Assembly: GCA_028683555.1 (NCBI GenBank)
Contig: JAQUHN010000003.1
Coordinates: forward strand, 1 to 64,000
Length of the DNA stretch: 64,000 bases
Origin: Geobacteraceae bacterium
GTDB lineage: Bacteria; Desulfobacterota; Desulfuromonadia; Geobacterales; Geobacteraceae
Direction of reading: 5' to 3'
Each line of letters starts with the position of its first letter. The first letter of the stretch is position 1. This document shows, piece after piece, positions 38,348 to 60,173 of this stretch. Under the pieces are notes generated by a model. The model was not told the origin of the DNA, did not search any database, and worked only from the letters and a program-made list of their open reading frames with translations. The position numbers and the translations under genes were made by a program.

Positions 38348-38349
38348 TT

Positions 38350-41414: not shown

Positions 41415-41475
41415 ATTTTATCACCTCCCCGGCACCTAGGGTCTCAGTCCTCGCCGGAATGCCATATTCCACCAG

Positions 41476-42676: not shown

Positions 42677-42729
42677 TTCTGTTCTCCTGTGGAAAGCCGC
42701 AGATGCCATCCAACATCAGTTACTTGAAA

Positions 42730-42993: not shown

Positions 42994-43043
42994 GCCCCAC
43001 CAGGAAGAATTTAAAATATGTCACCCGAATTTCCCCATGGTCA

Positions 43044-44324: not shown

Positions 44325-44427
44325 AACCGAAAATCCTTATTATTATAGTTACCACTACGGTATTCGACATCAAAACGAAACCGAGTGTTGTTGGTATAGC
44401 CCTTTTGCCCTACTATAGCCTCTTTGA

Positions 44428-44458
44428 TGTCCTGTTTGTCCAGTTTATGTCCAGTTTA
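44428..44458. repeat. Tandem 11-bp repeat upstream of the HTH protein gene
   Basis: TGTCCAGTTTA occurs twice in perfect tandem (44437-44447, 44448-44458), preceded by a partial unit TGTCCTGTT. It lies about 105 bp upstream of the HTH/coiled-coil gene and may be its operator. Confidence 0.5.
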
Positions 44459-44580
44459 AAGTTCTCAACGCTGCCTACTCGGTCTAAATAGGTAACAACC
44501 CTCTACTACAAAACCAGATCCTATTAAATCTGCGACAAAAGTTTCTCAAGCCGTAGACTGTTTATTGGCAAAAACATCAA

Positions 44581-45294
44581 CTAGGATAGGGCCAATTCCA
44601 GCCTGTGTTTTCGCTTTTCCCAGTCCGGCATGACCTTTTCCAGAAGTCGGTAGAATCCGGGGCTGTGATCATGATGTTGCAAATGACACAACTCGTGGAT
44701 AATGACGTAATCGATGCATTCAATAGGGGCGCGGACTAAATCCGGGTTGAGGGTAAGAGTCCCTGTCTTTGAAAGACTTCCCCAGCGCTTCTTCATCCAC
44801 CGAAGCTGAATTCTCGGTTTCGCTGAAACAATCTTTTCAAAATGCGGCCAGCTACGGTCAAATCTTTCTTTAAATCTCTCTGCCGCCTTCTGTGTATACC
44901 AGCCTTCCAGCAAGTACTTCACCTTTTCCGATGTGGATTCATCTTTTACATCTATGTAAAAATGTCCACGAATCAACTTTACCGAATTGATATTACCGCT
45001 GCTTATCTTTAGTCGATACTGTTTGCCGAGATAGAGGTGCGTCTCGCCGCCCGCGAAACTTTTTCCCGGAGTTCTCGGCTCGAATTGGCGGAAATAGTCC
45101 AGCTGCTTTTTGATCCATCCGGCACGCCTGATAACCCGCTTTCGAATTTCGGCGAAATTGGAACCTTCGGGTGCTTTTATCACCACCGCACTATCCGGAT
45201 GGACAGCGATTTCCATCGTTTTCCGGTCCACATATATCACTTTAAACTCTATCGTTTCTTTCGCATAGACGATCGAGCCTGACGACAAGCTCAT
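44581..45294 (-). CDS. YgjP-type zinc metalloprotease-like protein (M48-related)
   Basis: A 237-residue protein of the YgjP/DUF45 family. The zinc motif is HELCH at residues 200-204, followed by HHDHSPGFY supplying further ligands. RIQLRWMKKRWGSLSKTGTL and TLNPDLVRAP are family signatures. The ATG at 45294 overlaps the hsdR stop in ATGA, so it is co-translated with the restriction subunit. Members of this family often accompany type I restriction genes; the substrate is not known. It is the last gene of the defence operon. Confidence 0.9.
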   Translation of the reverse strand: MSLSSGSIVYAKETIEFKVIYVDRKTMEIAVHPDSAVVIKAPEGSNFAEIRKRVIRRAGWIKKQLDYFRQFEPRTPGKSFAGGETHLYLGKQYRLKISSGNINSVKLIRGHFYIDVKDESTSEKVKYLLEGWYTQKAAERFKERFDRSWPHFEKIVSAKPRIQLRWMKKRWGSLSKTGTLTLNPDLVRAPIECIDYVIIHELCHLQHHDHSPGFYRLLEKVMPDWEKRKHRLELALS

Positions 45295-48200
45295 CTACCG
45301 CTCCTGTGCCTGGCAACCTGCATGGTTCGCTCGATAATTTCATCCATCTGGTCGAGGCTGATCTCTACCCCTCTCTTGCCTTTGACCTCATCATAAAGAT
45401 AATCGTCAATATCGTTAACTGCCTGTTTCTGTGCATCATCGTCGTCCCAAAATTGTACTTTCCAATGGGACTTGAGTATTTCTTGAACTGCAAGGCTGGT
45501 ATCCGTGGCTATCTCGTCGCATTCCTCTGGCTCCAGTTGATGCCGGTCGAAGAAGGGCTTGAGAACGCCGTAGAAAGCCATTGCATCTTCGTTTCCGGAA
45601 AGCTTGTCAGGGATATCGTCATGGTGCCTGGTCACGACTTTTTTCCTGATCTCCGAGACCTTGCTAAGGTACTCCAGATCTGACAAGCGTTTCGCTCGAA
45701 AATCCTCAATGGCCTGCTGGATCAATTTGGAAAACTTCTCATAAAACGCAGGGTCTTCATCCATCTTTTCAGTTATGACCCGTTTTGTGGCGAAAGCGAT
45801 AGCATCAGCTTTTGCGGCCGTGGTCTTGCCTGCGACATATACTCCCTGTTCTTCCTTCACTACATCGAACAGTTTTTCATCGAAAATGTTCACCGGCTCA
45901 TTCAGTTGGATCACTTCATTTGCCTGGATGTGCGTGTCAAGCAGTTTCTTGATCTTCGGCTCGTAGTCACGGTAGTCAATTGCCTCGGCATAACGCAGCT
46001 TCACCGCAGCTTTCAGGTTCTGGAAACGCTTAAGATCATCCTTGTAACGTTTGAGCTTCTCGGCATCGACCCCCATGATGAACGTTTCCGCGGAAAGGGC
46101 AATCCCGAGCGACTTTCCGTACTCGGCCAGTCGCCGGTAGAAGTCTTCGCGCAAGGCATCATCGGCCAGCAGCACTTCATAAGCCTCTTCGTCATAGATG
46201 TTCTTGACTTCCTTGAAGATGTCCCAGAGGTCCGAATAACGCTGCGGCAGCTTCTCGATCTCGGTGTTGATGGAAGTCAGAGTCCCCTGTAGGTCCTCCT
46301 CATCAAACCCCTCAAAAGCCCCGTACATGGTCAGCGCCTTGTCCAATTCCCCGAGAAGACCAACATAGTCGACGACAAACCCGAATTCCTTGTCTTCGTG
46401 AAGCCGGTTGACTCTGGCGATGGCCTGGAGCAAGGTATGTTCCTTCAGTTCCTTACAGAGGTACATGACCATATTGCGCGGCGCATCGAATCCGGTCAGC
46501 AGTTTGCTCACCACAATCAGGATCTCCGGTTCCGAACCGAACTTGAACTGGTTGATTATCTGCTTGGTGTATTCTTCTTCGCTGCCGTAGCGTTTCATCA
46601 TCTTTTGCCAGAATCTGACCACCTCGTCCGTTGGCTCATCATCGGTCTCTTCGTAACCTTCACGGCTGTCAGGAGGGGAAATGACCACTTCGGACGACAC
46701 GAATCCGATATTCTCCAGATGCTCATGATACTTCAGCGCAACGGCCTTGCTCGGCGCTACCAGTTGGGCTTTGAAACCGGTTCCCTGCCAGGAGGCGCGA
46801 AAATGCTCGCTGATGTCGAAGGCCCGCATGTAAACTACCTGTTCCGCCTTGTTAAGCATGGAGGCCTTGGCAAATTTTCTCTTCAGGTCGGCTTGCTGTT
46901 CCCTGGTCAGTCCCTGCGTGTGGCGCTCGAACCAGAGATCGATGGCCGCCTTGTTCTGTACCATCTCCACGTAACGGCCTTCATAGAGCAGCGGCACGAC
47001 CGCCCCGTCTTCCACTGCCTGGTTGATGGAGTAGTGCGGTTCAATCAGACCGCCGAACTTTACAAAGTTGTTCTTTTCTTTTTTCATCAGCGGAGTGCCG
47101 GTAAAGCCGATGTAGCAGGCATTGGGAAACATCTGCCGCATCCTCGCCGAGAAAGAGCCGAAATTGGTCCGGTGACTCTCGTCAATCAGCATGAAAATTT
47201 CGGTGGAGTCGTCCTGGTATTTCCTGAGATTCAGCGCCTTGTCGAACTTGTGAATCAGCGTCGTAACGATGGCGGCCTTATGTTCCGCCACCAGTTCCAG
47301 CAGGTTTTTCCCCGAGGTGGCCCGGTCCGGGCTGAGGCCACAGGCGGCAAAGGTGTTTCCTAGCTGCTTGTCCAGATCGTCGCGGTCGGTCACTAGCACG
47401 ATGCGCGGATTGGGCACACTTGGATCGAGGGCCAGGTTTCTGGCCAGCATGACCATCGTCAAGGACTTCCCAGACCCTTGCGTATGCCAGATAATCCCTC
47501 CTTTACGACGTCCCTCGCCATCCAACTGTTTGATCCGCTCCAAGGTTGACTTGATGACGAAGTACTGTTGATAGCGGGCGATCTTCTTGATCCCACCATC
47601 AAACACGGTGAACCTGAACGTCAGCTCCAGAAGGCGTTCCGGACGGCAGAGGCTGTAAAGAGCCTTGTCCTGTTCCGTTACCAGACGTTCCCCTTCCGCC
47701 TCATGGGCGTCGAAAAACTTGCGGGCAACGGCAAACTCGCCGCTGAAGAGTTGGTTTTTTCTCTCCTCTGAGAGAACTGTATTGACGTAACGGGCAACAG
47801 ACGTGTCTTTGTCGAGCAGTTCCTTCCAGATTCCCCAGAATTTGGCTGCTGTACCCGCTGTTGCATAGTAGGCCGAGTTCTTGTTGATCCCCATGACCAG
47901 TTGTGTGTAGATAAACAACTTGGGTATATAATCATCACTCTGGTTGCGGATGGACTGAGAGATAGCCTTTTCAACTTCTACATTGGGGGATTTACACTCG
48001 ATGACCGCCAAGGGAATGCCGTTGACGAACAGGACGATATCCGGGCGAATGGTTTCCGTACTGCGAGCGCGATCAACACTGAATTCTGCGGTGACATGAA
48101 AAACGTTCCGGTCCCATGCGCGCCAGTTGATGTAATTAAGATTGAAGCTCTTGGAATCGCCTTCAATGGATTGTTCCAGCGCAGCTCCTAGGGTAATAAG

Positions 48201-48494
48201 GTCATAAATGACTTCATTCGTTTTCAGCAGGCCGTCGTACTTAACATTCTTCAGTTTCTGGATGGCGGTCTGGATGTTTTCTTCGCTGAAAAGGTATTCT
48301 CGACCCTTGTAAGTGATGCGGTTGAGGCGTTTGAGTTGTTCGCTAAGGATGCCTTCCAGAAGCACGTTGCCGGTTTTGCCCTGACGTTGTTTGAGAGCCT
48401 GATCAGGTGTCAGATATTCGAAACCCAGGTTGATGAGGAGTTGCAGGGCAGGGATCTGGGAGAGGTATTTTTCGTTGAAGCGGAAGCCGGTCAT
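45291..48494 (-). CDS. hsdR: Type I restriction enzyme R subunit (translocase and nuclease)
   Basis: A 1067-residue HsdR. The N-terminal nuclease has RPDIVLFVNGIPLAVIECKS (D...ExK, residues about 150-170). The motor shows Walker A GIIWHTQGSGKSLTMVMLAR (about 335-355), the DEAD-type box LIDESHRTNFG, FTGTPLMKKEKNNF, and helicase domain 2 with VVSKLLTGFDAPRNMVMYL and ALLQAIARVNR-like TLLQAIARVNRLHEDKEFG. The C-terminus is the helical HsdM-interaction region. The start has GAGGAATTGAT before ATG. It cuts DNA that HsdM/HsdS leave unmethylated. It lies 24 bp after the CBASS E2 gene, which is unusual, as hsdR normally follows hsdS directly. Confidence 0.95.
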   Translation of the reverse strand: MTGFRFNEKYLSQIPALQLLINLGFEYLTPDQALKQRQGKTGNVLLEGILSEQLKRLNRITYKGREYLFSEENIQTAIQKLKNVKYDGLLKTNEVIYDLITLGAALEQSIEGDSKSFNLNYINWRAWDRNVFHVTAEFSVDRARSTETIRPDIVLFVNGIPLAVIECKSPNVEVEKAISQSIRNQSDDYIPKLFIYTQLVMGINKNSAYYATAGTAAKFWGIWKELLDKDTSVARYVNTVLSEERKNQLFSGEFAVARKFFDAHEAEGERLVTEQDKALYSLCRPERLLELTFRFTVFDGGIKKIARYQQYFVIKSTLERIKQLDGEGRRKGGIIWHTQGSGKSLTMVMLARNLALDPSVPNPRIVLVTDRDDLDKQLGNTFAACGLSPDRATSGKNLLELVAEHKAAIVTTLIHKFDKALNLRKYQDDSTEIFMLIDESHRTNFGSFSARMRQMFPNACYIGFTGTPLMKKEKNNFVKFGGLIEPHYSINQAVEDGAVVPLLYEGRYVEMVQNKAAIDLWFERHTQGLTREQQADLKRKFAKASMLNKAEQVVYMRAFDISEHFRASWQGTGFKAQLVAPSKAVALKYHEHLENIGFVSSEVVISPPDSREGYEETDDEPTDEVVRFWQKMMKRYGSEEEYTKQIINQFKFGSEPEILIVVSKLLTGFDAPRNMVMYLCKELKEHTLLQAIARVNRLHEDKEFGFVVDYVGLLGELDKALTMYGAFEGFDEEDLQGTLTSINTEIEKLPQRYSDLWDIFKEVKNIYDEEAYEVLLADDALREDFYRRLAEYGKSLGIALSAETFIMGVDAEKLKRYKDDLKRFQNLKAAVKLRYAEAIDYRDYEPKIKKLLDTHIQANEVIQLNEPVNIFDEKLFDVVKEEQGVYVAGKTTAAKADAIAFATKRVITEKMDEDPAFYEKFSKLIQQAIEDFRAKRLSDLEYLSKVSEIRKKVVTRHHDDIPDKLSGNEDAMAFYGVLKPFFDRHQLEPEECDEIATDTSLAVQEILKSHWKVQFWDDDDAQKQAVNDIDDYLYDEVKGKRGVEISLDQMDEIIERTMQVARHRSGR

Positions 48495-48518
48495 ATCAAT
48501 TCCTCAAAAAATTATTAC

Positions 48519-49178
48519 CTATTTCATAACACTGATGATATTACTGTGCATCCGAAACCAAGACCTGGATGCAATATTTCTGAAACCATTTAGTTTTTTA
48601 TGAAAAACACAACTTCCCAAACGCTTCCCGCAGTTACACGGGCAAGAGAGCTTGTTAGCAACGCGTCTTTTAAAACCTAAAAGTTCAATTGCTTTCAGGA
48701 CACTTGCCTTTGATTTCAGCCCAAACATATCCATGTAATCATTAATTATTCCATCTACACCGTGAGCGAGTTCGCTAAAGACAAAATCACCACCATTTTG
48801 AAGCTTGTTGGTGACTGCATATAAATAAGGTACGAGGCAAGTTTCGACAAAATCAGTTAAAGTCGGCCGTTCTGCAATTTTCTTCATGAGATGAAGCGGA
48901 GATCCCAAGCAAAGGGTTTCATCATTATATACGTGGTGCTTTCCATCTCTTGGAATTTTGCGGCTCAGTTCCTTGACTGTTGGTATCGCTTTAGGAAACA
49001 GCGTTGGTACCATGATTTCCAGTTCATAAGAATCACATATTTGTATCCCATTTGGGGGCGTTCCGCAAAAATTGAAAGTGCCTCTTATCACGAAACCATC
49101 ACCCCGGTATGGCCTTATGGACATACCGGGATAGTCTTTCAAAAATTGTCCTAAATTATAGAACTCTTTTACTGCCAC
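48519..49178 (-). CDS. CBASS E2-like conjugating protein (short type II system)
   Basis: A 219-residue protein with an E2 ubiquitin-conjugating-like fold: YELEIMVPTLFPKAIPTVKE, then the probable catalytic Cys in HHVYNDETLCLGSPLHL (Cys 90). In short type II CBASS an E2-only protein acts on the adjacent CD-NTase to prime it; E1 and JAB domains are absent here. The C-terminus carries a cysteine cluster, CPCNCGKRLGSCVFH, resembling a small zinc-binding tail. It starts with GTG directly after the cyclase stop (TAGGTG). Family assignment rests on the Cys motif and neighbours. Confidence 0.85.
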   Translation of the reverse strand: MAVKEFYNLGQFLKDYPGMSIRPYRGDGFVIRGTFNFCGTPPNGIQICDSYELEIMVPTLFPKAIPTVKELSRKIPRDGKHHVYNDETLCLGSPLHLMKKIAERPTLTDFVETCLVPYLYAVTNKLQNGGDFVFSELAHGVDGIINDYMDMFGLKSKASVLKAIELLGFKRRVANKLSCPCNCGKRLGSCVFHKKLNGFRNIASRSWFRMHSNIISVMK

Positions 49179-50369
49179 CTATTTCTCCTGTCCCCAAGGT
49201 TTTGGAGGGGTCGATTCAATGTCATGGGTTCTGGGAACTATAATAGATGGCCCCAATGCTAGGCCAAGGCTTTTGCTAATCTCAGATGTATTCATACGTA
49301 CTGAGAATTTTTTACTAGCTTGCTCGGAAATAAATCCCGCATCATCCGATGAACACAAGAGTTCAATGTCAGTTTGCGCCTGTTGCAACCAAAACCAGAA
49401 ATTTTGCTCCAATTTAAGATGGTTACACTCCGGTCGTGACCACTTGTCTGCAAAATCTTCGGCAGGGTCTACCGGATTTGGCACACGAGGTTTAGCGGCA
49501 TTGACATAACTACCCATTCTTGAAAGGATTGAAGTCAGCGCTGACTCGATGTCGGTTTCACCGTTATATGCTCTAGCTGCCAGTGTAGTGAGGATTATGG
49601 AAATTGGTTTGACTTCAGGATCGTCTTTGAACATCAGATCACGATGCCGTTTCAACAATTGAACCACACGTTGAAGAGGCGTTTTCCGCTGGTAAATTGG
49701 AATTTCGTCAACTTGTGCTTTTTCCAAGATTGTTAGCAGCGACAAGTTCATTCGAGATTCAAACCATTTGGCGTAACCCTCTGGATTACTGATATGCCAG
49801 TTTTCGCTGATTTGTCTGTATTCAGGATGACGGTTATCAGTAATTGATACGGTCAGATGTGATGTACCCTGAGAAAAATACTCGTCTTCTCCCGACTTAC
49901 GTAGTGCTTCAAATATAAGTTGTTGACGGGCGTCATCCGCTGATATGCATGGAGTTATATCCATGTGAAAGCTGAGGGTATCTTGATACTCCAGTCGCCA
50001 ACAGCGATGTTTTTCATCTTTGGGGGCCTTTATCCCACGAGCAATCCGGTAGGATTCAATCTCGAGGCCAACCAGCACCTTCAGAGATTCCTGAGAATGA
50101 CTCTTTTTTGTTATCTGTGCGCGAAGCTTGCACGCAAGATCCAAATCGTAAGCTTCATCTTCAATGAGTGGACGAATTGCCGTACCGAGCCGAAATGATC
50201 CTTGAGGGAATATGTGAGGATCATTATTATTGCAGATTGATTCATCGCGTCCTAACCAGCTGCCAATGTCTTCATATCGGTCCTTAGCTTTTTGATAAGC
50301 AGACACAGGCAATTCCAGCAATGAGACCATGTTTTCAAGCAATAATCTTTTCTGTTCTTTTGTTGTCAT
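49179..50369 (-). CDS. CBASS CD-NTase (cyclic oligonucleotide synthase)
   Basis: A 396-residue cGAS/DncV-like nucleotidyltransferase that makes a cyclic nucleotide signal on phage infection. The active site is visible: FPQGSFRLGTAIRPL (GS motif), YDLDLACKL (the DxD pair, residues about 78-80) and a third Asp in LSFHMDITPC. The ATG at 50369 follows GGAGAA and lies one base after the capV stop; an upstream extension in frame is within capV. With capV before it and the E2-like gene after it, it forms a complete type II short CBASS. The product nucleotide cannot be told from sequence alone. Confidence 0.93.
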   Translation of the reverse strand: MTTKEQKRLLLENMVSLLELPVSAYQKAKDRYEDIGSWLGRDESICNNNDPHIFPQGSFRLGTAIRPLIEDEAYDLDLACKLRAQITKKSHSQESLKVLVGLEIESYRIARGIKAPKDEKHRCWRLEYQDTLSFHMDITPCISADDARQQLIFEALRKSGEDEYFSQGTSHLTVSITDNRHPEYRQISENWHISNPEGYAKWFESRMNLSLLTILEKAQVDEIPIYQRKTPLQRVVQLLKRHRDLMFKDDPEVKPISIILTTLAARAYNGETDIESALTSILSRMGSYVNAAKPRVPNPVDPAEDFADKWSRPECNHLKLEQNFWFWLQQAQTDIELLCSSDDAGFISEQASKKFSVRMNTSEISKSLGLALGPSIIVPRTHDIESTPPKPWGQEK

Positions 50370-50370
50370 G

Positions 50371-51312
50371 TTATTCTCCTTGAACAACAGATAGAAGCCT
50401 TTTGATTTTTGCACTATTATGTGTAAACATCCGGTCGGCATTGGAAATCAAATCATCAATAGCAGAGCAGTCATCGAGGGGGAGTGGACAATCAGAATCA
50501 AAGTTGAGCCGGATAATTTGATCTTCATTCAGCATCAACTGCAGATAGTTATGGGTTGTCTGCGCCTGGAGAGACATCATGAAGCTAATGAACTCTTTAC
50601 CCTTCCAACCATTCAGGAGTCCCCATTTGCGGTTTGATTTTACTCCATAACAGGTTTTTGCGTGGCCTGTTCCCAATGACAGGATACGTATGTCGGATAA
50701 TTCGATATTGAGTCGACGCCGAGCATCAATGACGGCTGCAAGCGAAGGGTTATTGGCCCAGAGACCGCCATCAGCAAGAAGGTATTCGTCGACCTTGGTC
50801 GGATTAAAGTATGTCGGAGCAGAACAGGAGGCTAATACTGCCTGGTGCAGCAATACGTTGCCATCTCTGTCGTAATCCTTTTGATAGGCGGACTTGAAAA
50901 CATGAACACCGCCATTTCCGATATCGGTAGCAGGTATCAACAGCGGAATTGGAATCTCGCAAAGCTTTATTTCACCAAACGTTTCTACAAGTGCAGTTTG
51001 CAGGGCTTCGTTCTCATACAGATTTTCAAGAGCAGGCTGATATTTGGCTACTTTTTTAGGCAGCCAAGGCTTCTTTCTAGAAAAAATTTTTGGTCCATGC
51101 TCTCGATACATGGCGACAACTTTTCCCGGATCAATTTTGCACGCCACAGCAGCGGCAATAATCGAGCCGGTACTGGTACCGGCAATCATATCGAAATGTT
51201 CTTCTATATTGATGCCGAGTCTATACTTCATGCAATAAAGGAGATGGGCAGGAAAAACTCCACGTATCCCTCCGCCATCAACGGACAGAATTTTGAACGT
51301 CTTGTTTGGCAT
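50371..51312 (-). CDS. capV: CBASS effector, patatin-like phospholipase CapV
   Basis: A 313-residue patatin phospholipase. The oxyanion motif is SVDGGGIRGVFPA (residues 10-22), the nucleophile Ser 47 is in AGTSTGSI, and the catalytic Asp is in LLADGGLWANNPS (about 179). When bound by the cyclic nucleotide, CapV enzymes degrade the inner membrane and kill the infected cell. No membrane segment or signal is present, as expected. Its ATG shares a base with the hsdS stop (TAATG), so the CBASS effector is translationally coupled to the restriction system. Confidence 0.94.
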   Translation of the reverse strand: MPNKTFKILSVDGGGIRGVFPAHLLYCMKYRLGINIEEHFDMIAGTSTGSIIAAAVACKIDPGKVVAMYREHGPKIFSRKKPWLPKKVAKYQPALENLYENEALQTALVETFGEIKLCEIPIPLLIPATDIGNGGVHVFKSAYQKDYDRDGNVLLHQAVLASCSAPTYFNPTKVDEYLLADGGLWANNPSLAAVIDARRRLNIELSDIRILSLGTGHAKTCYGVKSNRKWGLLNGWKGKEFISFMMSLQAQTTHNYLQLMLNEDQIIRLNFDSDCPLPLDDCSAIDDLISNADRMFTHNSAKIKRLLSVVQGE

Positions 51313-52550
51313 TACCTGGCTCCCTCTTCAGCCCTTACCCGCCACACTCCGGTCAATAACTTTTGCATTAGCCCGCGCTTTTGCCGTCGCAAAGCGTCAT
51401 TCTGCAGTTTCAATAGATCGATTTCTTGCCTGGCTAAATTGAGAGTTGCTGATATTTTTTGTTGTTCTTCGAGTGGTGGCATTGGGATGGGCAGTTTGGC
51501 AAACTCATTCCATCGTAGACTTCCTCTACGGTCAACTGATGCACTGGTATTGACTTGGAAAATGTGTCTGTAGGTTTCCGTTTTCAGAACTTTGTAAAGA
51601 TAGCCATCGTCAATAGCATTACTGGTTTTGAATACCGTGTACATTGGACTGACAAGAGCATTTTCATAAAAATCCTGATAACCGATTGAGCCTTCCTCAA
51701 TGTGGTTTGTGGCGTAGGCAAACTCACCTTTGGAAACCACCTTATAGGTCGATGTATTAAGGCTGAACACCTGTTTTCCGAAATACGACAATGAATCAAC
51801 CAAACCGTCATGCTTTGTGCTTGAAAGAACTGGAATATCCTCACTTGCATCATTTGTAGCCTTAACTTCTTTTGCGACCGCACCGATCTTTACAATTCCC
51901 CAGTGCCCTGGCACTGCGAACCACCTTGTTTTTTTCGTTACATCAGCATTAGCTGAGTTACCGAATAAGAGATTAACGGAGAGCCACTTATACTGCTTCT
52001 CTTTGGCCGCAATCAGCAGTTCAGTCTTTTCGGTTGCCTCATCCCAGGCTGAAAGCATTGAGGCAATAGCAGTTTGTTCAGAGAGAGGGACAATGAAGAT
52101 AGGAAGTTTTGAGATAATTTCTGTATTCAAGTTGAGCATTGTTTGGCCAAGAGCATTGCTTTCAAGCCACTTGCCCACTTCAGAAAATTGTACATACTGG
52201 TGAATATAATTATGGTCAACTTCTTTGCTAAGCCGCGCTCTTAAGCATCCTGTTCCACAAAGCCATCCAGCATTTTCACTTTTGGCAACAGCAATGCGAA
52301 TCAGGTTACCTCTTCGTGGAAATATTATATCGCCTTCAATAATTCGGTGCTTTGCAAGTTTTTTTGCCTTCACTTCTGGTACGCGGGCAATGGAATTAGA
52401 AACGATTTCACCATTTGAAATATCTTTAGGCATAACCACTGGAATGCCTTCATCTTCATATTCTTCAGCTTTAAGCTGGCTTCCAAATGGCCCAGTTTGC
52501 AGTCCTTTTGAAACAGTTAGTGTTCCAAGTGTTGCAAAGTGTCTATTCAT
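51312..52550 (-). CDS. hsdS: Type I restriction enzyme specificity subunit
   Basis: A 412-residue HsdS with two target recognition domains (about residues 1-150 and 210-350). The conserved helical dimerisation repeats end each: PLSEQTAIASMLSAWDEATE and PLEEQQKISATLNLARQEID, then the tail RQKRGLMQKLLTGVWRV. The ATG at 52550 overlaps the rhuM stop by 8 bp; longer frames have no support. It would determine which bipartite site is methylated and cut. capV starts on its last base. Confidence 0.93.
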   Translation of the reverse strand: MNRHFATLGTLTVSKGLQTGPFGSQLKAEEYEDEGIPVVMPKDISNGEIVSNSIARVPEVKAKKLAKHRIIEGDIIFPRRGNLIRIAVAKSENAGWLCGTGCLRARLSKEVDHNYIHQYVQFSEVGKWLESNALGQTMLNLNTEIISKLPIFIVPLSEQTAIASMLSAWDEATEKTELLIAAKEKQYKWLSVNLLFGNSANADVTKKTRWFAVPGHWGIVKIGAVAKEVKATNDASEDIPVLSSTKHDGLVDSLSYFGKQVFSLNTSTYKVVSKGEFAYATNHIEEGSIGYQDFYENALVSPMYTVFKTSNAIDDGYLYKVLKTETYRHIFQVNTSASVDRRGSLRWNEFAKLPIPMPPLEEQQKISATLNLARQEIDLLKLQNDALRRQKRGLMQKLLTGVWRVRAEEGAR

Positions 52551-53571
52551 TTCTTGCCCCCACCAGCTTGGCCGCATCTACCAACGCCTTGATGGATTCC
52601 TCCTCGCCAAGCGACTCTTTGTGCTCCCTCCGCCGTAGGGCAAAGCGATCATACTCGTCATGAGCATGGTTTTCCGCGCTCTTTTTGCTGACCGTTCCGG
52701 CATTGGGGAGAACATTACGGTCATTGAAACGCAGAAACTCATCCAGCTTCTGTTCCCAGTCATTCATGAAAACCTGCTTGCGCCGTCGGGCCTGATCTTC
52801 GGCATAATCTAGCCACATGACAACGATCCGGTTCAGTTCCTCGATTTCCTGCTCGTTCAGGTAGTTCTTGGCAATGGCAACATCGTTCTTCCGCACCTCG
52901 TCGGCCTTCCAGCTAGTCAAACCCATGTTGGTTTTGGTATGGTCAGCCCGTTTGAGAATAAGTTGTGGGGCGGTCATGCCGGTTGCGGCAAAGTGCAGCT
53001 TATTCTGGATGATGCTGAAAAACTTGGTGGTCTCCGGCCAGGAAGGGTCATAATCGCCTGCCATAGCAAAAATCTCCTTCACACGCAGGTACATCCGCCG
53101 CTCGCTGGCGCGAATATCGCGGATGCGTTCCAGCATCTCGTCGAAGTAATCAGGGACACCGGAGCCGGCAATAGGCGGGTTCTTTAGCCGCTCGTCGTCC
53201 ATGGTGAAGCCTTTGATGATGTACTCCTTCAAGCGTTGCGTTGCCCAGATGCGGAAGCGAGTCGCCGTATGACTCTTAACCCGGTATCCGACCGAAATAA
53301 TTGCATCAAGGTTGTAGAAATTTGTTTCGTATTTTTTGCCGTCTGCGGCAGTTGTAAAGAATTTCTTTACAACTGGTTCCTGCAGCAACTCCCCTTCGTC
53401 AAAGATGTTTTTCAGGTGCTGACCTATGTTCTGCTTGCTGGTCTGGAAAAGCTCCGCCATCATCTGCTGCGTTAGCCAGACAGTCTCATCCTCCAGCCGA
53501 ACATTGATCTTGATTCGCCCACCTTCTTCGTAAACTAGAAATTCCCCTATGGCTGGCAGATTGTCACTCAT
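52543..53571 (-). CDS. rhuM: RhuM-family protein in the restriction operon
   Basis: A 342-residue RhuM homologue. The family pattern is clear: VWLTQQMMAELFQTSKQNIG, KFFTTAADGKKYETNFYNLD, AIISVGYRVKSHTATRFRIW and ATQRLKEYIIKGF. The N-terminal part resembles a phage Bro/KilA-type DNA-binding module. RhuM was named from a Salmonella pathogenicity island, but its biochemical role is unclear; it is often found inside type I restriction operons. It overlaps hsdM by 4 bp (ATGA) and hsdS by 8 bp, so it is coupled on both sides. Confidence 0.9.
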   Translation of the reverse strand: MSDNLPAIGEFLVYEEGGRIKINVRLEDETVWLTQQMMAELFQTSKQNIGQHLKNIFDEGELLQEPVVKKFFTTAADGKKYETNFYNLDAIISVGYRVKSHTATRFRIWATQRLKEYIIKGFTMDDERLKNPPIAGSGVPDYFDEMLERIRDIRASERRMYLRVKEIFAMAGDYDPSWPETTKFFSIIQNKLHFAATGMTAPQLILKRADHTKTNMGLTSWKADEVRKNDVAIAKNYLNEQEIEELNRIVVMWLDYAEDQARRRKQVFMNDWEQKLDEFLRFNDRNVLPNAGTVSKKSAENHAHDEYDRFALRRREHKESLGEEESIKALVDAAKLVGARNE

Positions 53572-55124
53572 CGTTCAATCTCCTTCAGCATGACCACCAT
53601 TTTCGCCCGCACCTCGGCAAGTTCTTTCTCCAGCTGATCAATCTCATCCTGCACGGCATCGATGTCGATTTCCTCCTCTTCCTCGAAGGTATCCACGTAG
53701 CGGGGAATGTTGAGGTTGAAATCATTCTCCCTGATTTCCTCAATTTCCGTCACGTGGGCATACTTCTCGACATCCTTTCGAGTCTGAACGGTCTCGACGA
53801 TTCTGCGAATATGATCGTCGGAAAGGGCATTCTGGTTCTTGCCCGGCAGATAGTCACTGCTGGCATCGACAAAGATCACATCCTTGCGACCCTCATTTGC
53901 ACCACCTTTTTCCCGACTCCGATCGAATACCAGGATCGCAACCGGAATGGATGTGGTCGTGAAAAGGTTGCCCGGCAGGCCGATAACGGCGTCGAGCAGG
54001 TTCTCTTCAATCATCTTTTGGCGGATGCGCCCCTCGGCAGCCCCCCGGAACAAAACGCCATGAGGAACCACCACTGAAACCCGTCCTTCCTTCTCAATCG
54101 CCGCTTCCACCATGTGGCTGATAAAGGCCCAGTCCCCCTTGCTTTTAGGTGGCAAGCCACGCCAGAAACGGTTATAACGATCGCTCTCAGCTTCTTCAGC
54201 TCCCCACTTGTCGAGGGAGAACGGTGGATTGGCTACCACGACGTCGAACTTCATCAGTCTGTCGTTCTCCACCAGTGCCGGGCTGGTCAGAGTATCGCAC
54301 CATTCGATGCGGGCGCTGTCGAATCCATGCAGGAACATGTTCATCCTGGCCAGCGCCCAAGTGCTGCCATTAGACTCCATGCCGAAAAGAGCGAAGTTTC
54401 TGTCCCCTACTTCTCTCGCGGCCTCTATGAGGAGTCCGCCGGACCCGCAAGCAGGATCGCAGATGCGGTTCCCCGGTTTCGGGGCTCCCATTTTTGCAAC
54501 CAGTTCGGAAATTTTGTGCGGCGTGTAGAATTCCCCCGCCTTTTTCCCCGCATCGGCGGCGAAGCGCTCGATCAGATAAATATAGGTGTTGCCGATGACA
54601 TCCTCGGAAACCTTGCCGGGGCTCATGTCAAGTAAAGGCTTGTTGAAATCTTCCAGAAGCATCTTCAAACGTCGGTTGCGGTCCTTGGTCTTCCCGAGGT
54701 TCGCCTCGCTGTTGAAATCGATATTGCGGAACACGCCTTCCAACTTGGCCTTGTTAGCTTCTTCAATAGCGTCCAAGACGATATTGATGAGGTCTCCGAT
54801 GTTTGCCGCGTTTCGCCGCTCATAAAGGCTGTAGTAATCCGCAAGAAAACGATCTTCAACTTCACCGGTCTCATGATTCTTCAACTCCGCAAAGGGAAGG
54901 ACAAACCGTTCACGCTCCAGCTTGCGGCGGATGCGGGCATCGTCATCTCCATATTGCTTGCGAAACTCCTCGTAATGAGCCTTCCAGACATCCGAGATAT
55001 ATTTCACGAATAGCATGACGAGGATATAGTCTTTGTACTGTGCCGGATCCACCACCCCCCGGAAGGTATCGCAGGCCGCCCAAGCAGCATTGTTTACGTC
55101 TTTCTGGTCAATCTTCGGACTCAT
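53568..55124 (-). CDS. hsdM: Type I DNA N6-adenine methyltransferase subunit
   Basis: A 518-residue HsdM. SAM motif I is CDPACGSGGLLIEAAREVG (about residue 221) and catalytic motif IV is VVANPPFSLDKWG (NPPF, about 299). The N-terminal helical domain has WAACDTFRGVVDPAQYKDYI and the C-terminus a helical bundle rich in Glu. It overlaps the half-hsdS gene before it and rhuM after it by ATGA junctions. With HsdS it protects host DNA; with HsdR it forms the restriction complex. Confidence 0.95.
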   Translation of the reverse strand: MSPKIDQKDVNNAAWAACDTFRGVVDPAQYKDYILVMLFVKYISDVWKAHYEEFRKQYGDDDARIRRKLERERFVLPFAELKNHETGEVEDRFLADYYSLYERRNAANIGDLINIVLDAIEEANKAKLEGVFRNIDFNSEANLGKTKDRNRRLKMLLEDFNKPLLDMSPGKVSEDVIGNTYIYLIERFAADAGKKAGEFYTPHKISELVAKMGAPKPGNRICDPACGSGGLLIEAAREVGDRNFALFGMESNGSTWALARMNMFLHGFDSARIEWCDTLTSPALVENDRLMKFDVVVANPPFSLDKWGAEEAESDRYNRFWRGLPPKSKGDWAFISHMVEAAIEKEGRVSVVVPHGVLFRGAAEGRIRQKMIEENLLDAVIGLPGNLFTTTSIPVAILVFDRSREKGGANEGRKDVIFVDASSDYLPGKNQNALSDDHIRRIVETVQTRKDVEKYAHVTEIEEIRENDFNLNIPRYVDTFEEEEEIDIDAVQDEIDQLEKELAEVRAKMVVMLKEIER

Positions 55125-55702
55125 CGGTTCGCCTCTCCTTCAGCCAGGTTAAGTAATTTTGCGGACAAATATTGTTTCCGTTTCTCAGCCAACTTCTTTA
55201 TCAAGCTCTGTTCCCGCTCCACTAAAACGGATAACTCAACGATCGCCTTTTGCCGTTCAAGCGAAGGTACAGCTATCTCCAAGGCTTCCAGCGCATCCTT
55301 GCTGATCATCTTTTGCGCTGTTCCCTTTGAATGCGTCGCCAGAAAAGATTGCGCCGGCGGGGAGTTGATATACCAGTTCAGATATTCGGCAAGGACACCG
55401 CTGTCGGTCAGCCGAATACGAAACAATGGTGCCGCCACAACAGCATTTCCGGGATTATCCGAAAGGATGGCACAGGTATTTGTAACGCCGCGTGAACGAA
55501 AGATAAGGTCGCCCCTCATGGCTAAATGGTGTTCCTTGGGCTGCTCCATGTCTATTTGCAAAAGCCCACTGAGGTCGACCTGATCATCGATAAGATCTTT
55601 CATCTGAATAATCGCCACGGCACCGGACGGCACGACATCAAGCCGCCCCCGAAACGTATAGCCAATCTGGATGGATGCAATTTTGCGCAACTCGACTTTC
55701 AT
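55121..55702 (-). CDS. Half-size specificity subunit (single target recognition domain)
   Basis: A 193-residue HsdS-like protein with one recognition domain: AIIQMKDLIDDQVDLSGLLQ, RGDLIFRSRGVTNTCAIL and LEALEIAVPSLERQKAIVEL. One conserved helix ends the protein (ELSVLVEREQSLIKKLAEKR). Two copies could pair to read a symmetric site, or it could pair with the full HsdS. It is the first gene of the operon and overlaps hsdM by 4 bp. It appears complete rather than truncated: the start has its own promoter and the C-terminal helix is intact. Confidence 0.88.
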   Translation of the reverse strand: MKVELRKIASIQIGYTFRGRLDVVPSGAVAIIQMKDLIDDQVDLSGLLQIDMEQPKEHHLAMRGDLIFRSRGVTNTCAILSDNPGNAVVAAPLFRIRLTDSGVLAEYLNWYINSPPAQSFLATHSKGTAQKMISKDALEALEIAVPSLERQKAIVELSVLVEREQSLIKKLAEKRKQYLSAKLLNLAEGEANR

Positions 55703-55735
55703 TTTTCACCTATCACCAAAACTCAATTGCAGAGA

Positions 55736-55764
55736 AAAATAACACAAGGATGTTGTTTCGTCAA
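55736..55764 (-). promoter_or_regulatory. Promoter of the RM/CBASS operon
   Basis: On the minus strand: -35 TTGACG (55759-55764), a 17-bp spacer, and -10 TATTTT (55736-55741), about 35 bp before the first start codon. An inverted repeat, ATTGCAGA (55726-55733) and TCTGCAAT (55785-55792), brackets it and could be a regulator site. Confidence 0.65.
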
Positions 55765-55802
55765 TAAAAAAAATGAAAAATATTTCTGCAATCGCATTAC
55801 TG

Positions 55803-56378
55803 CATTATGATGCTACTTTCTTTGTCGTAATAGAGATTGATAACTGGCCGAGGGTAAAAGAAGGCAAAATGGAACAAAAAGGGATATGCAATGCAGCATT
55901 GAGATACTCATTTGCATCTGTAATTTAGGGACTACCTGTAGTTGCGTCGCTTAAGATTGCCGGCCGGACAGTTGAAGCTGCCGTGGTCGATGGTCATTGA
56001 CCACCATGAAAAATCACCTACCTAATTCGCTCCATGTTTAACAGCGCAAGACTGTTCGCCGTTGCCAACTGGGACCACTTTTCGGATGGTAAAGATCATA
56101 CTGACACCCTGCTTGCCGAAAAAGTGGTGCCCGTGCCCCTGTTCCTTCCCTGCATGTCATGTCGCGGTGCCGTCACCCCTCCTCTTCAATAGTTACCACG
56201 TCGCGGTTCCAACCTTGAAGGGGACCTCGTAAATTTGCGACTATAACTATATATTCATATAGTTATTCGTGATTTTTTCGGACATGTTTCTGTTCTCATC
56301 TGCGCATGAACCTCATGCCCGATTCTATTCAGGGACCCCTCCGGGCGGCGCAAACCGCCCTGTCCGCATTGCAACAGC
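55803..56378. other. Non-coding accessory DNA with a small palindrome
   Basis: About 575 bp between the defence operon promoter and the gene at 56379. No frame is supported. It contains the palindrome ATAACTATAT-ATTC-ATATAGTTAT at 56243-56266 (10-bp perfect arms). Confidence 0.5.
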
Positions 56379-56819
56379 TCATAACCCGAGAATGTCAGCG
56401 TAGCTAATCGAAACCTTCCCCACTGTCAGCTTCATTTTTCTGCCTCTGATTTTGGCCGCAGCCTTGCGCAGGCCTTGAATCCTTTGAGCATCAACATACG
56501 CGCCAAAGGCCATCCTCACGCGGTACTGGAGGAGGCTCGTGGCCAGATACCTCCTGCCGTCCTCGTTGAGGAGGGTGTTCAGGAGGTACCGGTCGACCTT
56601 ACTGTACTCCGGAAACAGGAGGAGCATGGTTCTTTCACGGGCTCTTTTCGCCTTGAGGGCTGCCGCGATGAACCAATGCTTGTCCCAGAGCTGGCCCAGG
56701 ACAGACAGAGCCCTTACTCCATCATCATCGAGGGGAAGACTGATAAGTCCTTCCTTTGCCATTCGTCCGATGACGTTTTCCGGAATGCCGAATGCTGCAG
56801 TTGCTTCCTTTTGATTCAT
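56379..56819 (-). CDS. Small protein of the replication module, unknown function
   Basis: A 146-residue protein. The ATG at 56819 follows AAAGGAGG. The N-terminus MNQKEATAAFGIPENVIGRM resembles a MerR/excisionase-type winged helix (AFGIPENVIGRMAKEGLI). The rest is basic and helical (WFIAAALKAKRARERTML, RKAAAKIRGRKMKLTVGK). It lies beside iteron-like repeats and repA on the same strand, so a role in replication control or partition of the element is possible. I do not recognise a family. Confidence 0.7.
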   Translation of the reverse strand: MNQKEATAAFGIPENVIGRMAKEGLISLPLDDDGVRALSVLGQLWDKHWFIAAALKAKRARERTMLLLFPEYSKVDRYLLNTLLNEDGRRYLATSLLQYRVRMAFGAYVDAQRIQGLRKAAAKIRGRKMKLTVGKVSISYADILGL

Positions 56820-56930
56820 ACGCAAACCTCCTTTTATTGTTGGTACGGAAAACCTTCTGTAGGCCGGTTTTGCCCACGTTTCACGGTGAACGTGGGTCCC
56901 CCCTTCACTTCTCCACAACCCAGCGGCTAC

Positions 56931-56969
56931 TACTACAGGTGTATTACTACAGGTATTAAAACTACAGGA
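56931..56969. repeat. Short direct repeats ACTACAGGT
   Basis: TACTACAGGT at 56931-56940 and 56945-56954 and AACTACAGGA at 56960-56969, at 14-15 bp steps. They lie between the small gene and the iterons and may be part of the origin or a promoter operator. Confidence 0.5.
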
Positions 56970-57012
56970 GGAGGCTGCCATGCCCCGCCCTGTCCGGGCT
57001 ACGCGGCAACCT

Positions 57013-57097
57013 CTCCTACCGTTTATGCGTAGCTCACCCCGAAATCTCCTACCGTTTATGCGTGCACTCCTCTTATTTCTCCCTACCGTTTATGTGT
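57013..57097. repeat. Iteron-like direct repeats, candidate replication origin
   Basis: Three direct copies of CTACCGTTTATGCGT (the third has TGTGT) start at 57016, 57049 and 57083, 33-34 bp apart, close to three helical turns. The last overlaps the repA stop codon. Regular spacing beside a RepA gene is typical of iterons bound by the initiator. Confidence 0.7.
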
Positions 57098-58006
57098 GGA
57101 CAACTCCGGCAGTCGACAGGGTTGTGCACGGCCTACATGGGACTGTGATGGTTTCAGCAACAGCCCAATGGGGGTCGGAAGCGCCCTTGCAAGGCAGTAG
57201 ACAGTCAGCACCTTTCTAAGGGCATCGACGAAGGCGGCCCTGAAGTTGTCTTCCCGGCCGTAATCGGCGCCGAACTGCTCGGCCAGTGCAGACCAGGGGA
57301 CAAGGGTCGCTTTCCTGAGATAGCTCATTCGGTAGGTCAGCCAGCAGTAGATGTCCAGCGCCAGGGGCGACCTTCTGAGCGCCTTGAGTGCCCTGGTGTC
57401 GACCGGCACCGGATGGTCAATCAACTCCCGGAAGAAACTGGCTCCCAGGATAACCTGCGAGTGCCAGAAGTCGAGCTGGTCCGGGTCCTTGGGGTGCCAC
57501 CAGAGTCTTGTCTCATCCGCTATCCGGAACCCGACGCTCGCCCAGTGGCTCTCACCGCTGTGGATGCAGGAAATTGACGTGGAAAACAGCCGCTGCAGCT
57601 GCTGCTTAACCCGGGGAATAGTTCCCCTCCTGCCGCCGGTGGCAGTGAGCCCCAATTCGCGCATGAAGGCGGCCAGGCTGTCACCGAGAACCACATCGGG
57701 TCGTTGAGTGCGGACAGCCTCGGTGGAGACCCAGGACAGGATGAGTCGCGGTAGTGAGCCGTACGGGAGCCCGATTTCGGCCGGCGCCATCATGATCAGG
57801 GTGTAGTTGCCATTCCTGCGCCTGAACTCGTTGAGCCCCGGGTCGCGGTGGGGCATGGTGGCCTGGACCATGGCCCGGGTCATGAATCCGATGCTCCCGC
57901 TCTCCCGTGGGCCCTCCTGCTGAATCTCTTCAGCCCGGGCAATAAGGTCCAGGTCACACTGCCGCAAAAGAGGACGGCCCTTGGTGTCGGTGTCCGTTAA
58001 CATCAT
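57083..58006 (-). CDS. repA: Plasmid-type replication initiator RepA
   Basis: A 307-residue protein of the plasmid RepA family (PF04796 type). Family blocks: YTLIMMAPAEIGLPYGSLPR, LILSWVSTEAVRTQRPDVVL, LWWHPKDPDQLDFWHSQVIL, GASFFRELIDHPVPVDTRAL and LRRSPLALDIYCWLTYRMSY. Such initiators bind iterons and open the origin. It lies between the iterons and an alpA-like gene, all on the minus strand. Its presence in a chromosomal element suggests an integrative plasmid or an element that can replicate after excision. Confidence 0.88.
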   Translation of the reverse strand: MMLTDTDTKGRPLLRQCDLDLIARAEEIQQEGPRESGSIGFMTRAMVQATMPHRDPGLNEFRRRNGNYTLIMMAPAEIGLPYGSLPRLILSWVSTEAVRTQRPDVVLGDSLAAFMRELGLTATGGRRGTIPRVKQQLQRLFSTSISCIHSGESHWASVGFRIADETRLWWHPKDPDQLDFWHSQVILGASFFRELIDHPVPVDTRALKALRRSPLALDIYCWLTYRMSYLRKATLVPWSALAEQFGADYGREDNFRAAFVDALRKVLTVYCLARALPTPIGLLLKPSQSHVGRAQPCRLPELSTHKR

Positions 58007-58024
58007 CCGGCGGCATTCGGGTGG

Positions 58025-58273
58025 CTATTTCTCAACAGTATTGGATGTGCTCGCTATGAACGCCCGAAGGTCTTCGGCCCTCCAGACTGTCAGACGCGGG
58101 CCGAGCTTCAGCGGCTGCGGGAAGAACCCGGACTTGACCCCCGCCCACCAGGTGCTCTTGGAAACCGGAATCAGGGCCGGAATGGGCGGATCCGCCTTGG
58201 GCGATCCGATAATCTGGGTGAGCCGAAGAAAGCCGGTTTCCGGTAAAATGGTTTTGGTCGTGATGAATTCCAT
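58025..58273 (-). CDS. AlpA-like DNA-binding regulator / excisionase
   Basis: An 82-residue winged-helix protein of the AlpA/phage-regulator type: ETGFLRLTQIIG, then IPVSKSTWWAGVKSGFFPQP and LKLGPRLTVWRAEDLRAFIA. The ATG at 58273 follows GGAGGCAGAT; upstream codons are not conserved. AlpA relatives activate or assist excision by P4-type integrases. It is 18 bp upstream of repA, on the same strand as the integrase, and may couple excision with replication. Confidence 0.85.
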   Translation of the reverse strand: MEFITTKTILPETGFLRLTQIIGSPKADPPIPALIPVSKSTWWAGVKSGFFPQPLKLGPRLTVWRAEDLRAFIASTSNTVEK

Positions 58274-58372
58274 ACGATCTGCCTCCTTGTTGTCTCGTTG
58301 AAGCAAGGCAGGGAATTTTGGGCGGGCTGAGTATCGGCCGGCATCGTGAATGCCGATGATTGCGACATTTCA

Positions 58373-58412
58373 ACAAAAAAAGGCCACTACCCTTGCTCAG
58401 GTAACGGCCTTT
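58373..58412 (-). terminator. Rho-independent terminator upstream of alpA, downstream of the integrase
   Basis: On the minus strand AAAGGCC(GTTACC) pairs with (GGGTAGT)GGCCTTT and is followed by TTTTGTTG. It would stop integrase transcripts before alpA. The 250 bp between it and the integrase stop hold no supported gene. Confidence 0.7.
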
Positions 58413-58660
58413 GCACAAAACATCCGAGAAACATCAGATTCGCCCCAGTAAAATAGCTGGTTGCGAATCAGGCTGCCCAGTCTCATGCCTTGACTTCTAA
58501 ATTCCACCGAATCTGGCGGAATGAGTTATGTAGGACTGCATAATACTGCTTCAGACAACTATGTCAATACAAAAAAGAGGATAAATTGCAGTTTAATCAA
58601 TATGTTACAACCAGAAACACAATGAAACAGCCTAACAATTGCCTCACGGCGGGGAAGTCG

Positions 58661-59896
58661 TTAGAGGGTTGAACGCTTTGCCAACTGCATGACCTTTGCC
58701 CCACTCTTCAGCTTATCCAGGTAGTCGGCCCATTGCTGCATCATCCTGCGCCGCTCGGTCAAATGAGAGGTTCGATTATAGGCGCGACCGTTGGGGTCGC
58801 GAACGGCGTGGGCAAGCTGGTGCTCAATAATGTCAATCCGCTGATGCAGGACTTCGTCAAGGATTGTCCGTGCGGTCGCTCGAAAACCGTGGCCGGTGAT
58901 GGTATCGCCGTCAAACCCCATTCGCCGGAAGCTGGCGTTTATGGTGTTGTCGCTCATGCACCGGGCAAATGAGCGTGTGGAGGGAAAGACGTATTTGCTG
59001 TTGCCTGTAAGCGGCTGAATTTCCTTCAAGATAGCGATTGCCTGCTTGGAAAGTGGGACAAGGTGGGGTTCTTTCATCTTCATCTTCTGGCCTGGAATAT
59101 TCCATTCCGCCGCGTCAAAATCGATCTCCGACCATTCCATGTGCCGCAACTCGCCGGGCCTGACGAAGACAAGCGGCAACAGCTTCAAGGCGCATTTGGC
59201 GACATGGCCGCCCTGATAGGTATCGATGGCGCGCAGGAGCGGGGCAAGTTCCTTTGGGTCGGTAACCGCTGCCATGTGCTTCCTGGTTTTGCTTATTGCC
59301 GGCAGATAGCCCCGGAAACCGGCAGAGATGTCGTAATTTGCCCTGTCAACTGACATGGCGTACCGGTAGACCTGCCCCATAATCGTCAAAGCGCGTCGTG
59401 CCGTCTCAATCACTCCCCTTGAGCGGATTCTATCCAGAATGGCCTTGATTTCTTTCGCGGTGACCTCAGTAATCGGCTTGCTCCCGATCCAGGGGAAAAT
59501 GTCCTGGGTCAGACGGTTCATGATGGTGGCAGCGTGTTCATTCGACCACTCTTTATTCTCCACCATGTGTTCATGCCATTCACCGGCGATAGTCTCGAAG
59601 CTGTTGGCTTTCAGGTCGGCTCTCCTCTGTTTTGCCGCCTTTCTCTCCGCGGAAGGGTCGATGCCGTTTGCCACCAGATTCCGGGCTTCCTGGCGGCGCC
59701 CACGTGCTTCCGCCAGGGAAATGTCGGGATAGACCCCGATGGCAAGCAGCTTTTCCTTCCCATCGAAACGATACTTGAATCGCCAGAGCTTGCTGCCGCC
59801 GGAAGTAACCAAGAGATACAATCCTCCGCCATCCGTGAGTTTGTAATCCTTCTCTTTTGGTTTTGCTGTTTTTATCTGAATATCCTTTAGCGCCAT
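58661..59896 (-). CDS. int: P4-type tyrosine integrase
   Basis: A 411-residue tyrosine recombinase. The N-terminus has the DUF4102 arm-binding domain (LTDGGGLYLLVTSGGSKLWR, IGVYPDISLAEARGRRQEAR). The core-binding and catalytic domains follow, with the first catalytic Arg in FVRPGELRHMEW, HxxR in GHGFRATARTILDE, His in IEHQLAHAV and the nucleophile Tyr in GRAYNRTSHL. It looks intact. It starts 180 bp from the tRNA-Sec 3' end, which it presumably recognises as att. Its start codon overlaps the arm-like repeats, so binding of the enzyme could repress its own gene. Confidence 0.94.
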   Translation of the reverse strand: MALKDIQIKTAKPKEKDYKLTDGGGLYLLVTSGGSKLWRFKYRFDGKEKLLAIGVYPDISLAEARGRRQEARNLVANGIDPSAERKAAKQRRADLKANSFETIAGEWHEHMVENKEWSNEHAATIMNRLTQDIFPWIGSKPITEVTAKEIKAILDRIRSRGVIETARRALTIMGQVYRYAMSVDRANYDISAGFRGYLPAISKTRKHMAAVTDPKELAPLLRAIDTYQGGHVAKCALKLLPLVFVRPGELRHMEWSEIDFDAAEWNIPGQKMKMKEPHLVPLSKQAIAILKEIQPLTGNSKYVFPSTRSFARCMSDNTINASFRRMGFDGDTITGHGFRATARTILDEVLHQRIDIIEHQLAHAVRDPNGRAYNRTSHLTERRRMMQQWADYLDKLKSGAKVMQLAKRSTL

Positions 59897-59897
59897 A

Positions 59898-59963
59898 AGA
59901 TACCCCCATTTATTGGGACAGATACCCCCAGTACTAAGTCGAACACCCCAAGATATACCCCCA
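59898..59963. repeat. Possible integrase arm-type sites, right end
   Basis: AGATACCCCCA at 59898-59908 and 59920-59930, and ATATACCCCCA at 59953-59963, just upstream of the integrase start. The same motif occurs at the left end of the element and near the distal att. Confidence 0.6.
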
Positions 59964-60016
59964 ATAGACCCCGGATTTCTGCAAACATTATAATGCTATC
60001 CTGGACTTTATTCAAT

Positions 60017-60042
60017 AAAAAACCCGCTATTTCTAGCGGGTT
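60017..60042 (-). terminator. Terminator downstream of tRNA-Sec, inside the element
   Basis: On the minus strand AACCCGCTA pairs with TAGCGGGTT around GAAA, followed by TTTTATTG. It lies 33 bp past the tRNA 3' end and supplies termination in place of the displaced hairpin at 38304-38347. Confidence 0.75.
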
Positions 60043-60074
60043 ATGGCACATCATGAAACACTCTGAAACATGTA

Positions 60075-60085
60075 ATGGCGGAAGC
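60075..60085. repeat. Attachment site within the tRNA-Sec 3' end
   Basis: ATGGCGGAAGC, the shared core; the longer match to the internal copy at 40945 runs to 60094. The tRNA remains complete because the element's end restores its 3' sequence. Confidence 0.75.
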
Positions 60086-60173
60086 GCATGGGAATCGAAC
60101 CCACCCGGGAAGTTTCTCACCCCCCACACCGGTTTTGAAGACCGGGCGGCCCACCAGCGACCGACGCGCTTCC
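60076..60173 (-). tRNA. selC: tRNA-Sec (anticodon UCA)
   Basis: A 98-nt selenocysteine tRNA with encoded CCA. The extended acceptor GGAAGCGC pairs with GCGCTTCC. The anticodon arm CCGGTCTTCAAAACCGG contains TCA and reads UGA. A very long variable arm (GGGGGGTGAGAAACTTCCC region) and the T-arm GGGTTCGATTCCC are present. selB lies at 31678 in this window. selC is a well-known integration site for genomic islands. Confidence 0.95.

Follow-up and report, generated by a model that had tools for sequence, protein, structure and literature searches.

The stretch of DNA analysed here (the window; 64,000 nucleotides in contig C224 of a 3.88 Mb draft assembly that is 93% complete) probably contains, at 40943-60075, an integrative element of ~19.1 kb that sits at the 3′ end of tRNA-SeC, carries a plasmid-type replicon together with anti-phage defence genes, and would exist as a theta plasmid when excised. 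A sequence-only reading of the same DNA had suggested an element able to replicate when excised. At the level of sequence the suggestion is well supported: initiator and integrase are intact, the origin layout is conserved, a candidate excision factor and att ends are in place, and both the operon position of repA and the predicted fold of its product fit. What the analysis adds to that reading is the tRNA-SeC integration site, the two ends of the element, the older remnant in tandem with it, and the connection of its small ORF with conjugation modules.

The integration machinery and the ends of the element comprise the following features:

60076-60173, minus strand: tRNA-SeC (selC), the integration target, found with ARAGORN; the tRNA region is matched in 42 of 48 genomes of the family
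60075-60094, plus strand: selC-side att core ATGGCGGAAGCGCATGGGAA
59897-59962, plus strand: int-side arm-type repeats (A)GATACCCCC / ATACCCCC at 59900, 59922 and 59955, putative binding sites
58661-59896, minus strand: P4-type tyrosine integrase, 411 aa (PF13356, PF22022, PF00589)
58025-58273, minus strand: AlpA-like small DNA-binding protein (PF05930, E=6e-4)
41031-41040, plus strand: distal-end arm-type repeat AAGATACCCC
40943-40962, plus strand: distal att copy ATTGGCGGAGCGCATGGGAA, the left end of the repA element
40653-40867, minus strand: N-terminal remnant of a second integrase, of DUF6538 type, from an older element (PF20172, E=9e-7)
38350-38360, plus strand: outer att remnant ATGGCGGAAGC, corresponding to the final 11 nt at the tRNA end

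The P4-type integrase and the AlpA-like protein had both been named from the sequence, and the former is confirmed. The integrase frame is intact and adjoins the 3′ end of tRNA-SeC, and its product is 79% identical to selC-adjacent integrases of two other genomes, G058 and G020. The AlpA-like protein scores 20 bits against PF05930, 1 bit short of the Pfam cut-off of 21; it is likely an excision factor or regulator. Related integrases (E up to 1e-60) occur in 94 of the order's genomes and AlpA homologues in 75 of 141. The same genome holds a second int-alpA pair (G000:C121:323-3117), with an integrase 58% identical to the first and an alpA-like frame that contains a stop.

The extent of the element was delimited by comparison with genome G059, in which a terminator-like flank lies directly 3′ of selC. 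The corresponding native flank is displaced in the window to 38257-38349, left of 38350 (blastn, 80% identity to the selC-adjacent flank of G059), and some 21.7 kb thus separates selC from it. Position 38350 is nonetheless disfavoured as the left end of the repA element. What favours a tandem instead, in which an old remnant (38350-40943) is followed by the repA element (40943-60075), is the att copy at 40943 together with the leftover piece of a DUF6538 integrase. Each of the three att cores has a copy of the 10-mer AAGATACCCC beside it, and these three are its only copies in the window. Between the cores at 40943 and 60075 one base is deleted and one changed, and a similar one-base-shorter core lies at the far end of the selC elements of G058 (~8.1 kb) and G020 (~8.7 kb). 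The selC site has been invaded repeatedly. The older remnant retains a gene for a PhnD-type periplasmic protein (38795-39790) besides the truncated DUF6538 integrase; in G059, near selB, a 31-bp piece of tRNA-SeC accompanied by scraps of DUF1016 and of a DUF6538-like integrase (L055, 8639-9418) is the scar of a lost element.

Behind alpA lies the replicon:

57083-58006, minus strand: repA, PF04796 initiator of 307 aa, starting 18 bp past the alpA stop
57095-57103, minus strand: DnaA-box-like TTGTCCACA, one mismatch, overlapping iteron 3
57083-57097, plus strand: iteron 3, CTACCGTTTATGTGT, one mismatch to CTACCGTTTATGCGT, overlapping the repA stop
57049-57063, plus strand: iteron 2, exact copy of CTACCGTTTATGCGT
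57016-57030, plus strand: iteron 1, exact copy of CTACCGTTTATGCGT
56932-56969, minus strand: three CCTGTAGT repeats (ACTACAGG on the plus strand), 14-15 bp apart
56909-56917, plus strand: DnaA-box-like TTCTCCACA, one mismatch, beyond the CCTGTAGT repeats
56379-56819, minus strand: orf146, 146 aa, homologue of a gene between sigma-like and tra genes in F-type conjugation modules

The assignment of RepA to PF04796, made in the sequence-only reading, is secure: the RepA_C domain is matched over residues 81-230 at E=5e-31 (108.8 bits against a cut-off of 26), and alignment with nine relatives from plasmids and contigs reveals a full-length protein with neither internal stop nor truncation. RepA is 45-54% identical to plasmid RepAs, and its nearest relatives are plasmid-borne; order-level relatives of the draft genome include Pelobacter propionicus, and a 30,722-base contig of genome G122 has a repA match positioned as in pPRO2. 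By sequence RepA matched no chain in the PDB. An AlphaFold2 model (39 relatives aligned; pLDDT 79.9, pTM 0.77, both ends weak) was compared with the PDB by Foldseek, which returned domains 2-3 of RctB as the top match (E=5e-8) and RepE54 among the next, weaker matches, above E=0.01. RctB and RepE54 are both iteron-binding initiators, and the modelled fold of RepA matches this class (RctB and, more weakly, RepE).

Taken alone, the occurrence of CTACCGTTTATGCGT in the window is only mildly unusual, three matches at ≤3 mismatches being reached in 9 of 100 shuffles. That the repeats, spaced at 33 and 34 bp, are real iterons is indicated by related plasmids, in which motif, side, orientation and helical spacing are all kept. 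The motif lies 3′ of repA in the same orientation in pH8NP1, pW9NP1, pA31BJ1 and pPAES01: the three Polaromonas plasmids among these (pH8NP1, pW9NP1 and pA31BJ1; RepA 49-54% identical) have it with two mismatches at 33/22 bp spacing, and pPAES01 has many copies. Related motifs at 33/33 spacing occur in pPRO2 and in plasmid-like contigs of G059 and G061. More broadly, direct repeats in helical phase follow repA at 36 of 62 loci drawn from many phyla, against 1 of 1240 mononucleotide shuffles, and the core ACGCATAAACGGT or a close variant can be recognised by eye in most of these 36. The three iteron-like repeats that had been pointed out at the repA stop are therefore borne out by comparison.

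The same is true of the further ACTACAGGT repeats (the reverse strand of CCTGTAGT), present at 56932, 56946 and 56961, twice exactly and once as ACTACAGGA. Taken one by one as 9-mers, they are no rarity in the window. They occupy the most AT-rich stretch of the origin, and pairs of the CCTGTAGT type follow the iterons at the corresponding place in 18 of 62 repA loci (18 of the 36 with iterons), as compared with 0 of 1240 shuffles. These two shuffle comparisons lead us to reject a chance origin of the repeats. A role for ACTACAGGT solely as orf146 operators is likewise rejected: the closest orf146 homologues lack such repeats upstream, and plasmid origins have them. Plasmid relatives carry TTATCCACG in a register matching TTGTCCACA. 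On comparative sequence grounds, then, the ACTACAGGT repeats belong to a conserved origin, as probably do the DnaA-box-like sites.

Some 260 bp downstream of repA is orf146, the small partner gene of the sequence-only reading, whose reality is attested by a strong upstream ribosome site, AAAGGAGG, and by homologues at 55-63% identity. It has no Pfam family, found no match in the plasmid database or in IMG/VR, and its model, predicted without partners, was too poor (pLDDT 50) to be used. Across the class, 39 of 277 genomes encode homologues. At all eight loci examined they form part of a module with a TrfA-like initiator, sigma-like genes, a 222-aa gene, and OmpA-like, DsbC-like, TraL and TraE genes (the contig of L079 is incomplete, and in L083 the tra part runs in the opposite direction); Pfam matches in these modules are TraE, TraL, TraC_F_IV, TrfA and a weak Sigma70. 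In the window, by comparison, orf146 is a solo copy beside an origin. The genome has no second homologue, and a resident helper is accordingly not seen. The location of orf146 and its small size suggest that it may be a regulator.

The remainder of the element is cargo, much of it directed at defence:

53568-55702, minus strand: HsdM and a short HsdS-like ORF (type I restriction-modification)
51312-53571, minus strand: HsdS and a RhuM-family protein
48519-51312, minus strand: CBASS, with patatin effector, DncV-like CD-NTase and E2-like protein
45291-48494, minus strand: HsdR
41534-45294, minus strand: YgjP-like peptidase, a 426-aa protein of no known family, and a DUF1016/YhcG nuclease

No relaxase, partition or conjugation/transfer gene was recognised among the ORFs of the element that were scanned. 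Contig C29 of G027 encodes a 62% identical copy of the 426-aa protein (43044-44324) at L050, 17928-19166, with a distant RepA ~8 kb away.

The position of repA directly behind alpA is telling. At 23 of 30 other alpA loci the following gene – defined as the next on the same strand, usually within ~30 bp – is a replication gene: a Toprim primase in 14, a DnaB-like gene in 5, a replisome-organiser type in 3 and DUF927 in 1, proportions that are no census given that the loci were picked by likeness to the present AlpA. The remaining seven comprise two other genes and five small winged-helix-like proteins of one family. This family, found directly after alpA in L168, L169, L177, L191 and L054 and lacking a Pfam match in the members tested, may represent unrecognised initiators. 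Set against these 30 loci, a plasmid repA in the slot is seen only in the present element. Viewed from the side of repA the arrangement is equally singular: among surveyed repA loci, many of which end at contig edges, AlpA lies near none of 94, and the present integrase or AlpA near none of 80 genome loci; nor is an integrase or AlpA found near related RepAs on viral contigs. As a whole, the int-alpA-repA element turned up in one genome only.

A profile search placed a tyrosine integrase near repA at only two of the 94 loci, L134 (2586-6873, a Lysobacterales MAG) and L146 (3357-6855, Chiayiivirga). Both are ICE-like and combine the integrase with VirD4-type genes and a PF04796 repA that has iterons; L134 directly adjoins a tRNA-Asn, a partial copy of the tRNA being on another contig. 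On long contigs, repA with iterons also lies close to tRNA-Ala (L144, 5347-6840) and tRNA-Met (L122, 4480-6876), possibly as further integrated replicons.

From these features we infer a cycle in which AlpA and the integrase would promote excision via recombination between the att cores at 40943 and 60075. Transcription from alpA would continue into repA, and RepA, a predicted double winged-helix initiator, would bind the three iterons that directly follow repA on its 3′ side and, with host DnaA at the adjacent boxes, melt the AT-rich CCTGTAGT region. The excised circle would replicate in the theta mode of a plasmid and its copy number would probably be low; replication would guard the excised form against loss and raise its dose for transfer, which, with no relaxase or conjugation gene found, would have to use a helper. 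Several features speak against this reading, namely the presence of only three iterons (few for an origin), the mismatch in each DnaA box, the absence of a partition gene, the unequal att cores, the modest statistics of the repeats when the window is taken by itself, and the occurrence of the whole element in a single genome.

Some of these same features could signify a decayed or silent replicon, that is, a plasmid-derived module that looks intact within an island that no longer excises or replicates. Accretion and decay are indeed evident at the selC site, in the truncated second integrase and the shrunken remnant element, and the missing partition gene and the non-identical cores would fit. 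But int, alpA and repA all remain open, the iterons are near identical to one another, and the core difference is shared by the G058 and G020 elements, whose integrases are 79% identical to the present one. The shorter core is probably native to this integrase group, and we dropped its reading as a sign of decay. A silent replicon is accordingly judged unlikely.

The alternative raised in the sequence-only reading was an integrated plasmid. On this view selC would have been entered by a complete PF04796 plasmid that had gained an integrase, and the other plasmid genes would have been lost later. The plasmid affinities of RepA and the occurrence of orf146 homologues on conjugative-element contigs accord with such a history, and there are integrating plasmids, pPDL2 among them, that have oriV, repA and int (PMC3516476). 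It is nevertheless the less likely account, and we hold it very improbable: repA here is accompanied by no par, mob (relaxase) or tra gene, and shares an operon with alpA just as phage-type replication genes do in sister elements; at none of the 80 genome loci with repA is the present integrase or AlpA a neighbour. That operon slot could instead betray a phage satellite, packaged by a helper phage, in which RepA-oriV substitutes for the satellite primase in making the packaging substrate. The int-alpA backbone of relatives does bear a Toprim primase, DnaB-like helicase or replisome organiser, and a jumbo phage moves AlpA-bearing tmRNA islands that contain defence genes (PMC12595487). Yet no P4 alpha primase-helicase, capsid-interference or capsid-size, terminase or other phage-interference gene was recognised among the ORFs of 40943-60075, and orf146 points to conjugation instead; a satellite existence is thus judged unlikely.

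The preferred reading, an excisable island with its own replicon, may be taken a step further. The solo orf146, whose homologues elsewhere accompany F-type conjugation operons, hints at helper control of the element. Tentatively, orf146 might tie excision, RepA-driven amplification and transfer to the arrival of an F-type conjugative element from this bacterial class, making the whole a helper-gated replicating defence island; were this true, SGI1 with AcaCD/SgaCD would have in it a Geobacterales counterpart made of unrelated parts. If the island replicates, excision would raise the dose of its defence genes and make them more stable, and orf146 would become a defined candidate for helper sensing. 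The presence of a plasmid origin as a unit in a slot that phage-type primases and helicases hold in sister islands is evidence that replication modules are exchanged between integrative islands across the divide of plasmid and satellite lineages. From the survey of origins there also emerges a predicted binding motif, ACGCATAAACGGT, for a widespread RepA family that has no solved structure. Integrative elements with their own replication are known; a PF04796 replicon within an int-alpA defence island at selC, together with a solo orf146, appears to be new within the reach of the searches made.

Among known systems, PF04796 plasmids (Polaromonas pH8NP1, pW9NP1 and pA31BJ1, Pelobacter pPRO2 and PromA pSB102) share a related RepA, 46-54% identical to the present one. 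The origin layout 3′ of repA is equal in the Polaromonas plasmids and similar in pPRO2, and no such repeats were found in the stretch of pSB102 scanned. Unlike the present element these plasmids are free, some have ParA, and int-alpA was not found beside repA. Islands and satellites of the P4/CP4-57 type at selC have in common with it the integrase family, an AlpA-like protein, the tRNA target and variable cargo, and sister selC elements of this type occur in G058 and G020. Islands and satellites of this type hold primase/helicase or phage-type genes and no plasmid initiator with iterons. The Pseudomonas tmRNA islands I23, I44 and I55 resemble the element in intY, alpA, defence cargo and lack of transfer genes, but differ in site and in having alpA at the opposite element end, and no plasmid replicon is reported for them in the sections drawn on here (PMC12595487).

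SGI1 offers by analogy a precedent for the reading we prefer, in that it replicates after excision, although only with a helper, of whose activator it carries relatives, and has iterons 3′ of repA (PMC7826253). Its S004-repA-oriV module, like the present one, belongs to an integrative element that does not transfer autonomously, and in it a small gene precedes, within one operon, a plasmid initiator that has iterons on its 3′ side (PMC7826253, PMC7433901). The differences lie in a RepA of IncN2/N3 type, other iterons, insertion at trmE, and replication that needs the activator of the IncC helper plus its own; whereas the SGI1 family is defined by an IncN2/N3 or Rep-primase RepA and by trmE, here RepA is of PF04796 type and the site is selC. 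IMEs with plasmid or phage initiators have been reviewed (PMC5704250). GIsul2 and related IncP islands each carry rep genes of plasmid type (repA/repC) alongside alpA and a tyrosine integrase, and AlpA overexpression promoted mobilisation of islands of this type (PMC9376610, PMC5704250). They target guaA and carry resistance cargo, and their rep genes are known by description as RepA and RepC; GIsul2, with int, alpA and repA/C, is nonetheless the closest known arrangement to the element described here (PMC9376610).
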